Part shown: in pieces, positions 55,545 through 57,580 of the stretch
How the letters are laid out: the number at the start of each line of letters is the position of its first letter
Position numbering within the stretch: position 1 is the stretch's first letter
Source of the DNA: Fundidesulfovibrio magnetotacticus
Lineage (GTDB): Bacteria > Desulfobacterota > Desulfovibrionia > Desulfovibrionales > Desulfovibrionaceae
DNA length: 64,000 nucleotides
Assembly: GCF_013019105.1 (NCBI RefSeq)
Contig: NZ_BLTE01000007.1
Location: forward strand, 124,001-188,000
Direction of reading: 5' to 3'
Made by a program: the position numbers and the translations under genes
The notes under the pieces: generated by a model
The model's database searches: none
The model's input: only the letters and a program-made list of their open reading frames with translations
Told to the model about the DNA's origin: nothing

Positions 55545-56540
55545 ATGACCGCCAACAACCGCATCGTCTCGGGCATGCGCCCCACCGGCCCCCTGCACCT
55601 CGGGCACTATTTCGGAGTGCTCGACAACTGGGTGGAACTCCACAAGGACCACCAGTGCTTCTTCTTCGTGGCCGACTGGCACGCCCTGACCACCGAATAC
55701 GCCGACCCCACGCGCATCAAGGGCTTCGTGCCGGGCCTCGTGCAGGACTGGGTGGCCGCCGGGCTCGACCCCGCCCGCTGCGTGATGTTCCAGCAGTCCG
55801 AGGTGAAGGAGCACGCCGAGCTCTCGCTCCTGCTCTCCATGATCACCCCCGTGAGCTGGCTGGAGCGCAACCCCACCTACAAGGACGTGCGCGACCAGCT
55901 CGACGAGGCCAAGGACCTCTCCACCTTCGGCTTCCTGGGCTACCCCGTGCTCATGGCCTCGGACATCCTCATCTACCGGCCCAAGTGGGTGCCCGTGGGC
56001 CAGGACCAGCTGCCCCACCTGGAGCTGACCCGCGAGATCGCCCGGCGCGCCAACCACCTCTGGGGCGACTTCTTCCCCGAACCCGAGGCCAAGCTCACCC
56101 GCGCCCCCAAGCTCCCCGGCCTGGACGGACGCAAGATGTCCAAGAGCTACGGCAACGCCATCTCCCTGGGGGAGGATCTCGACGGCGTGCGCGCCAAGAT
56201 CAAGCCCATGCTCACCTGCACCAAGCGCGTGCGCCTCAAGGACCCCGGCGAGCCCGACGAGTGCAACCTCTACCCCTACCACCTGCTCTTCACGCCCCAG
56301 GAAAAATGCCTGGAGATCGCCAAGGCCTGCCGCGAGGCAAGCATCGGCTGCGGCGAATGCAAGAAGATCATGGGCGACAACCTCACGGCCTTCCTGGAAC
56401 CCTTCCAGGAGCGCCGCAAGGCCTTCGACGCCAACCCCGACCTGGCCTGGGACATCCTGCGCGACGGCAACGACCGCGCCCGCGCCGCCGCCCGACAGGT
56501 GATCGGCGAACTGCGCGAGAAGCTGAACTTCAACTTCTAG
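55545..56540 (+). CDS. trpS: Tryptophanyl-tRNA synthetase
   Basis: A 331-aa class I aminoacyl-tRNA synthetase. The HIGH-like motif is in GPLHLGHYFGVLDNW near residue 14 and the KMSKS loop in GLDGRKMSKSYGNAISLG near 200. YLGYPVLMASDI-like and VPVGQDQLPHLELTREIARR segments are diagnostic of TrpRS. It charges tRNA-Trp. A strong terminator follows within 24 bp. Confidence 0.96.
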   Translation: MTANNRIVSGMRPTGPLHLGHYFGVLDNWVELHKDHQCFFFVADWHALTTEYADPTRIKGFVPGLVQDWVAAGLDPARCVMFQQSEVKEHAELSLLLSMITPVSWLERNPTYKDVRDQLDEAKDLSTFGFLGYPVLMASDILIYRPKWVPVGQDQLPHLELTREIARRANHLWGDFFPEPEAKLTRAPKLPGLDGRKMSKSYGNAISLGEDLDGVRAKIKPMLTCTKRVRLKDPGEPDECNLYPYHLLFTPQEKCLEIAKACREASIGCGECKKIMGDNLTAFLEPFQERRKAFDANPDLAWDILRDGNDRARAAARQVIGELREKLNFNF

Positions 56541-56563
56541 ACGCGCGCGACGAGACGAGACGG

Positions 56564-56600
56564 AAAGCGCCCGGCACGCGAGACGTGCCGGGCGCTTTTT
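56564..56600 (+). terminator. Rho-independent terminator of trpS
   Basis: A perfect 15-bp inverted repeat AAAGCGCCCGGCACG/CGTGCCGGGCGCTTT with a 5-nt loop, running into five T. Confidence 0.9.
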
Positions 56601-56649
56601 GCATGCGGGGGCGGGGACTTCGGCCTCGGGTGCTCGGCTGCTGCCCGAG

Positions 56650-56755
56650 AACGGGGCTCCGCCCCGCGCCCCGGCAGGGCTCCGCCCTGCACCCGCCGGG
56701 GGGCGAGCCTCCCCCCGGACCCCGGCAATTGCTTCGCGGGATTCACCCGACACGC
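56650..56755 (+). repeat. Dispersed extragenic repeat, copy 5
   Basis: It runs from GAACGGGGCTCCGCCCCGCG through CCGCCGGGGGGCGAGCC to TTGCTTCGCGGGATTCACC. It shares module order with the copy at 40362-40478. Confidence 0.7.
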
Positions 56756-56784
56756 CTGCAATACCATAACGGTATGATTTGATT

Positions 56785-56849
56785 GTGCAATGCACGCCGT
56801 GCAACCCGGCGCGCGCGGCGTGCAGCAACTTGCACATCCTGGGTTGCAC
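56785..56849. promoter_or_regulatory. Symmetric GTGCAA/TTGCAC operator-like cluster
   Basis: GTGCAA occurs at 56785 and 56799, and its complement TTGCAC at 56830 and 56844. Each pair is spaced 14 bp and both pairs share one centre of symmetry at 56817. The inner left and outer right sites extend to GTGCAACCC/GGGTTGCAC. It lies 122-186 bp before the ZraP-like gene. The symmetry strongly suggests a dimer-of-dimers binding site, possibly metal-responsive; no binding protein is known. Confidence 0.6.
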
Positions 56850-56970
56850 CCCGGCAAGACGCACCGGGACAACATATCATTCCAGTAGGTTAGCGTGGCG
56901 CTTCGCCCTGGCACGGTCGATGCTAATTCCCCCCCAGACCCGGGCGTCCACCCGGACAAGGAGGATCATC

Positions 56971-57366
56971 ATGAAGAGATTCGTCGCCATCTGCTGTCTG
57001 TGCCTGCTTGCCGCATTCGTCGCGCTTCCCGCCCAGGCGGCCAAGAACGCCCCGCAGCAGGCCCAGGTCGTGCAGGACCCCGCCGCGCACCAGAAATTCC
57101 TGGCCGACACCGCCGCCACCAGGCAGGAACTGGCCGTCAAGCGGGCCGAATACCAGGCCCTCATGCAGGGCCAGAACCCTGACCGGGCCGCCGCCGCTGC
57201 CCTGGCCAAGGACATCTTCACCCTGCGCGAGAAGCTGCGCGCCCAGGCCGTGGACCAGGGCTTCGGCCCCGGAAACTGCCCCGGATACGGCGGTCGCGGC
57301 GCGGGCGGCTGCGGTGGCGGCGGCTGCGGAGGCGGCATGGGCATGGGACGCGGCATGGGCTGGTAG
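56971..57366 (+). CDS. ZraP/Spy/CpxP-like periplasmic metal-associated protein
   Basis: A 131-aa exported protein. Residues 1-23 are a signal peptide (RFVAICCLCLLAAFVALPAQ). The mature helical core (KFLADTAATRQELAVKRAEY, IFTLREKLRAQA) matches the ZraP zinc-resistance-associated family. The C-terminal 30 residues are Gly/Cys/Met-rich (GGCGGGGCGGGMGMG), suited to binding metal. AAGGAGG stands 7 bp upstream. A terminator follows at 57390-57415. Confidence 0.8.
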   Translation: MKRFVAICCLCLLAAFVALPAQAAKNAPQQAQVVQDPAAHQKFLADTAATRQELAVKRAEYQALMQGQNPDRAAAAALAKDIFTLREKLRAQAVDQGFGPGNCPGYGGRGAGGCGGGGCGGGMGMGRGMGW

Positions 57367-57389
57367 CGGCCACGCCGACACGGACGAGG

Positions 57390-57415
57390 AAAGCCGGGGA
57401 CAGCCCCGGCTTTTT
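57390..57415 (+). terminator. Rho-independent terminator of the ZraP-like gene
   Basis: A perfect 10-bp inverted repeat AAAGCCGGGG/CCCCGGCTTT with a 4-nt loop, followed by two more T. Confidence 0.85.
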
Positions 57416-57580
57416 CGTTTTGCCCGGTCCAAACGTCCACGCCGCCAGGAATCCGGTTGCGCCTCGCCCGCCGCGTCGGCATATTCCCTGAATCCGGCAC
57501 AGGCCCCTGCCCGGGATGGACATCCCGCGCAACCGCGCCATGCACCCCGCGCCGCGCACCGCCGCAACCAAGGAGCGCCC

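Follow-up and report, generated by a model that had tools for sequence, protein, structure and literature searches.

A candidate sigma-54 enhancer upstream of a ZraP-like gene: an inverted-repeat dyad that co-varies with a ZraR-like regulator

The locus described here lies in a window of 64 kb (the whole stretch of DNA analysed) and comprises a short gene for a ZraP-like periplasmic protein, a sigma-54 promoter and, further upstream, a cluster of short inverted words (Table 1). The upstream neighbour encodes a tRNA synthetase of the Trp/Tyr class and is closed by a strong terminator hairpin (56562-56603). A terminator-like hairpin also stands behind the ZraP-like gene, so that this gene is probably transcribed alone; the hairpin is not listed by a terminator pattern scan. 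Against the NCBIfam ZraP model the protein scores 56.1 bits (E 4.6e-15), where the cut-off is 200, and against Pfam Metal_resist (PF13801) it scores 24.7 bits, below the cut-off of 29.2. Because this protein and those of the C19 operon (see below) fall under the curated equivalog cut-offs, we name them ZraP-like and ZraR-like only.

The sigma-54 consensus is a GG-N10-GC element close to TGGCACG-N4-TTGCW. The element of the window fits 11 of the 12 positions of this consensus, and no sigma-70 promoter was found in 56530-57000. This near-consensus promoter, which lies downstream of the hexamers, is absent from the preliminary description of the locus.

Table 1. Features of the ZraP-like locus, in window coordinates.
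Feature	Position	Strand	Basis or remark
Satellite half-sites GTGCAA (56785, 56799), with TGCAC (56791-56795) between	56785..56804	+	Sequence
Central dyad GTGCAGCAACTTGCAC, candidate activator-binding unit	56820..56835	+	Recurs in the genome and in relatives
Satellite half-site TTGCAC	56844..56849	-	Sequence; no left arm to match it at the spacing of the dyad
Sigma-54 promoter TGGCACGGTCGATGCT (-24/-12 element)	56909..56924	+	Only exact TGGCACRN5TGCW match in the 64-kb window
Ribosome-binding site AAGGAGG	56958..56964	+	Sequence, by eye
ZraP-like periplasmic protein gene, 131 aa, Cys/Gly/Met tail	56971..57366	+	Signal peptide judged by eye; ATG at 56971
Intrinsic terminator, probable, after the gene	57386..57424	+	Hairpin -20.8 kcal/mol, z -3.95, then a T run

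The preliminary description had drawn attention to four hexamers: GTGCAA starting at 56785 and 56799, and TTGCAC starting at 56830 and 56844, with 14 bp within each pair and a mirror centre at 56817. Positions, spacing and centre were all re-found, and the view that chance placement is unlikely is borne out: neither four such hexamers within 65 bp nor their mirror arrangement appeared in any of 400 first-order Markov versions of the window. Counting both strands, the window has 10 copies of GTGCAA where 23.8 would be expected, and four of the ten fall inside the 65 bp of the cluster. The exact string GTGCAA-N8-GTGCAA (no mismatch) is present twice in the 4.46-Mb genome, both times at the cluster; with up to two mismatches allowed there is no enrichment, either in the genome (60 + 59 against 61 + 56 in the reversed control) or in the window (2 against 3.6 expected). 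The exact dyad GTGCARN4TTGCAC arose in 2 of the 400 simulated windows, and a dyad suitably spaced from a sigma-54 element in none. The four hexamers are a real, non-chance cluster. The spacer is GC-rich and the strong hairpin of the tRNA synthetase gene does lie upstream, from which it might be supposed that the words are a product of base composition, or a structural or terminator remnant of that gene; we give this negligible credence, given the simulations, the recurrence of the words before sister genes and in relatives, and the separation of the terminator from the cluster.

Two half-sites were missing from the preliminary description: TGCAC between the first two hexamers, and GTGCAG at 56820-56825. 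The latter, joined with the hexamer at 56830, defines a dyad, GTGCAR-N4-TTGCAC, that is not centred on the mirror axis. Exact copies of the dyad occupy three distinct sites in the genome (reversed control, 1): C7:180820, which is position 56820 of the window, C12:44746 and C19:34376. Each precedes a sigma-54 promoter and a ZraP-like gene, and a search for the dyad-plus-promoter pattern returned the same three promoters and no other (reversed control, 0). The exact dyad is therefore not scattered through the genome; random scatter of the motif was what the preliminary description had held would speak against it.

The mirror layout, which had been proposed as the unit, fares differently. Among 145 sequence sources it was found at no other locus (12 matches are copies of the window locus), and the sister promoters on C12 and C19 have the dyad without it. 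Relatives commonly have additional half-sites next to the dyad, but at other spacings, often 10-12 or 20-25 bp off; a 14-bp pair on either side sets the window promoter apart. The proposal of a mirror-symmetric operator for a tetrameric repressor or activator draws on the exactness of the layout in the window, which is unexpected by chance, but what recurs elsewhere is GTGCA-N6-TGCAC: the two sister promoters and 21 of 30 ZraP loci (C19 included) keep the 16-bp dyad at 10 or more of 12 positions without the layout, and the dyad itself lies off the mirror axis. Judged by this comparison the 14-bp layout is probably not the functional unit, and we regard a tetramer seated on it as very unlikely. 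As to the choice left between repressor and activator, activation through sigma-54 is indicated and a repressor operator is not. The broader expectation, namely a specific regulator site before the ZraP-like gene, probably linked to stress or metal, was right.

Three further Metal_resist matches with E below 0.001 are encoded in the genome, on C6, C12 and C19. Directly upstream of the C12 and C19 genes are GTGCAA/TTGCAC words and a sigma-54 promoter. The C6 gene (L013, C6:40807-41193), the best Metal_resist hit of the genome, lacks both elements in its upstream region, dyad as well as sigma-54 promoter, and is therefore probably under other control; within this genome the association of half-sites and gene holds for the C12 and C19 genes and fails for C6. 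On C12 a ZraP-like gene, a multicopper oxidase and an outer-membrane efflux protein stand in a row (L032 8868-12335) behind two dyads and a sigma-54 promoter, in what looks like a copper-handling operon.

On C19 the order is zraP-like gene, weak DUF4405 gene, histidine kinase and response regulator, and the dyad and promoter at C19:34376 precede this kinase/regulator operon itself. The regulator combines a sigma-54 activation domain with a Fis-type helix-turn-helix. It scores 388.2 bits against the NCBIfam ZraR equivalog, below the cut-off of 760 and with three other models scoring higher; the kinase is likewise below the ZraS equivalog cut-off. The C19 ZraP-like copy reaches 61.2 bits against NCBIfam ZraP (cut-off 200) and passes Metal_resist with 46.4 bits (cut-off 29.2). 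Between the zraP-like and kinase genes lies a 409-residue Pro/Ala-rich protein with a weak DUF4405 match (L034 6282-7508), and several relatives have such a protein in the corresponding position.

As a query for relatives the window protein performs poorly, matching in three of seven same-genus genomes, its own included; the C19 copy was therefore used as the query for the bacterial family. Relatives of it were present in 98 of 119 family genomes, and exact dyads in 61 of the 119. The bare exact dyad is not enriched across the family: about 145 occurrences against about 141 in the reversed control (strand-counted, hand tally). Its placement is another matter. ZraP matches numbered at least 150 (94 genomes), and those listed were compared with the dyads: of the 112 distinct exact dyads, 23 stand no more than 1 kb upstream of a listed match (22 of 150 matches; 19 genomes), none is within 1 kb downstream of one, and the other 89 are not near any listed match. 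The dyad is special by position, not by bare frequency.

At the 30 ZraP loci (C19 included) a sigma-54-like site is found upstream in 27, and nine lack a dyad at the level of 10 of 12 positions. The suggestion that related ZraP-like loci would share the motif thus stands for the half-sites, which many have, and falls for the layout. The dyad-plus-promoter pattern gave 80 matches in 45 genomes against 32 in the reversed control (our own tally). By tblastn a ZraP-like protein was present at 16 of 30 returned loci, in one of them weakly; among the others are secreted-looking small proteins and promoters without a clear open reading frame. A scan of named genomes for relatives of the window protein returned two loci, in Desulfopila and Trabulsiella; neither gene is preceded by a GTGCAA word, though both have a sigma-54-like site.

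Some loci with dyad and sigma-54 promoter deserve mention in their own right. Two (L121 and L134) have, behind these elements, small glycine-rich or other low-complexity secreted-looking proteins. In genus g38 dyad and promoter are conserved (L122, L123 and L125), but in L122 and L125 no protein gene clearly follows; this promoter possibly serves a small RNA. A small RNA is reported among the targets of the Desulfovibrio vulgaris regulator DVU1419 (PMC4641369).

Measured from dyad start to the TGG of the sigma-54 element, the spacings of 47 distinct promoters (part of them from a pattern limiting spacing to 61-91) fall into bands of 67-71 (16 promoters), 76-81 (24) and 89-92 (4); three promoters lie outside the bands, at 61, 113 and 124. 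The window belongs to the third band: its dyad starts 89 bp upstream of the promoter, which begins 73 bp past the dyad. The observed phase coherence was unmatched in 5000 draws of a smoothed null, in a test that is post hoc and whose p-values are descriptive, and helical periods from 9.5 to 12 all fit the spacings. Many of the 47 promoters have a second conserved box (about AACATnnTGnAATA) some 17-30 bp upstream of the TGG. In many relatives its distance from the sigma-54 element is fixed, and a similar string in the window lies about 8 bp further upstream; the box could reflect IHF, an alpha-CTD contact or something else.

If the dyad is read by the C19 regulator, its presence might be expected to follow that of close homologues of this protein. 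A first set of 22 regions (C19, C12 and 20 neighbourhoods) has GTGC-N8-GCAC upstream of zraP in all 15 loci whose regulator is at least 63% identical to that of C19 and in none of three with a regulator of 45-47% identity; four regions have the dyad without such a regulator in the region. In a second set of 20 further neighbourhoods the dyad is found in 8 of 11 loci with a regulator of at least 63% and in none of five with a distant one (45-48%), while the four regions lacking a regulator divide into one with a GTGC dyad, two with a GTAT dyad and one with neither. The three misses beside a close regulator have degenerate dyads (8-9 of 10 positions). Pooled, this 4+4 dyad accompanies 23 of 26 close and none of 8 distant regulators (Fisher p 9e-6, for related genomes and a non-blind selection); as background, 33 of 926 600-nt tiles of the 40 regions have such a dyad, zraP promoters included. 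Both groups of 20 neighbourhoods were picked mostly by ZraP score with the dyad list already seen, G016 and G048 (first set) and G093 and G032 (second set) in knowledge of a dyad. The second set is for that reason not a blind hold-out.

The recognition helix follows the same division. It reads SRR(T/S)LQYKL in all 15 close regulators of the first set and TRATLHxKL in the three of the distant clade; in the second set SRRTLQYKL is present in 9 of 11 close regulators, the other two being unrecognised by the helix pattern (24 of 26 read in total), and the five distant regulators have INRKTLHLKL, ITRATLHNKL (two), ISRKTLHTKL and INRKTLLAKL. Whole-genome searches were made in twelve genomes, picked either because a dyad stood there with no regulator close by or because they had the other site, and all twelve encode, in the same locus, a regulator of 61-71% identity with the helix SRRTLQYKL. 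This includes G014, G016 and G033, where zraP bears the dyad and no regulator lies nearby. In G022 a 61% regulator with that helix is encoded, yet there is no exact dyad and no dyad-plus-promoter match. Across the loci compared, the dyad co-varies with regulator clade and recognition helix.

A different dyad, GTATA-N5-TATAC, was seen upstream of zraP in L145, L146, L153 and L158, and in L153 and L158 it adjoins a distant-clade regulator with the helix ITRATLHNKL. It is perhaps a second operator type.

Together the above analyses implicate the cluster, with high probability, as the upstream enhancer of the sigma-54 promoter, bound by the C19 ZraR-like regulator and driving the ZraP-like gene. 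Dyad, promoter, gene order, the one-to-one pattern in the genome and the co-variation with regulator clade and helix are all present in the sequence. From homology to the enterobacterial ZraSR we infer binding, activation and signal; a part for the satellites we infer as well. The regulator would be phosphorylated under metal or envelope stress and would bind the dyad GTGCAG-N4-TTGCAC, probably along with the satellite half-sites; once bound it would loop to the sigma-54 polymerase held at the -24/-12 element, and its hydrolysis of ATP would open the promoter, leading to synthesis of the ZraP-like periplasmic protein. We have counted against this reading the missing family-wide enrichment of the dyad, the 89 dyads not near a listed ZraP match, the three loci with a close regulator and degenerate dyads, the nine ZraP loci without a dyad, G022, the C6 gene, the scores of the window protein below the ZraP and Metal_resist cut-offs, and the sigma-54 activation domains that the genome encodes in about 30 further proteins. 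Any of these last might in principle bind the site in place of the C19 regulator, all the more as no regulator gene of such kind lies beside the window gene. However, the next best full-length regulators of the genome are 45-47% identical to that of C19, related loci with regulators that distant lack the dyad, and the C19 operon has this dyad in front of it too; another activator is thus improbable.

Beyond enhancement by the C19 regulator, a more elaborate arrangement is conceivable, and on balance we doubt it: two insulated ZraR-like systems might exist side by side in the family, the SRRTLQYK clade reading GTGCA-N6-TGCAC, and other helices (e.g. TRATLHNK) going at some loci with GTATA-N5-TATAC. 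In the first system the window promoter would then serve as an unlinked output of raised sensitivity, its satellites forming a larger activator assembly, with the copper-type efflux operon of C12 under the same control.

Read as a sigma-54 enhancer, an odd repeat becomes a testable regulon in which one regulator, one helix and one dyad may serve three promoters of the genome. Across a bacterial family the dyad offers a concrete operator candidate for a ZraR-like clade, a copper-type efflux operon is suggested to share it, and the two ZraR-like clades offer a natural comparison of helix and operator. This dyad was not met for a ZraR-like regulator in our literature search; the motifs of PMC3333781 and PMC4641369 are set out in figures and supplements, and it may already be in print.

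The ZraPSR system of Escherichia coli and Salmonella consists of the periplasmic ZraP, a kinase and a sigma-54 regulator, with zraP transcribed from a sigma-54 promoter under ZraR (PMC4987338, PMC7657598, PMC8249747). The system described here is like it in joining a periplasmic ZraP-like protein, a kinase and a sigma-54 response regulator. In the enterobacteria, however, zraP and zraSR diverge from one spacer, whereas here a zraP-like gene heads the C19 operon and two more copies are unlinked; and unlike those of ZraPSR proper, the proteins here miss the equivalog cut-offs for ZraP, ZraR and ZraS. The Salmonella ZraR site is entered as NK in the table of PMC4987338, giving no basis for a comparison of sites. 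The enterobacterial ZraSR responds to zinc and envelope stress (PMC7657598, PMC4987338). At 15 uM copper, no gene of Desulfovibrio alaskensis G20 was lowered further than a zraP gene (PMC8836040), and the sign of a copper response is therefore not to be assumed.

The C19 regulator also resembles DVU3381 and DVU1419 of D. vulgaris Hildenborough, which are likewise sigma-54 response regulators and have few targets. The D. vulgaris gene DVU3384 we take to be ZraP-like. It is called hypothetical in PMC3333781, and is, together with DVU3382-DVU3381, a target of DVU3381 (PMC4641369, PMC3333781); a second regulator, DVU0621, is also reported to target DVU3384 (PMC3333781), which we count against the reading with the C19 regulator. 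DVU1419 belongs to a three-gene operon and has an 18-bp motif (PMC4641369, PMC3333781), and both DVU3381 and DVU1419 are labelled envelope stress response (PMC4641369). Most D. vulgaris sites are described as inverted repeats of 4-6 bp, 3-8 bp apart, a form that the dyad fits (PMC3333781).

Most likely, to judge from the sequences, the element is an ordinary sigma-54 enhancer array of a ZraSR-like two-component system, and knowledge of sigma-54 control is unchanged by it. NtrC-type enhancers consist of inverted repeats placed about 60-150 bp ahead of a -24/-12 promoter. The arrangement here is the same; the sequence and spacing of the half-sites go with the clade of C19-type regulators.
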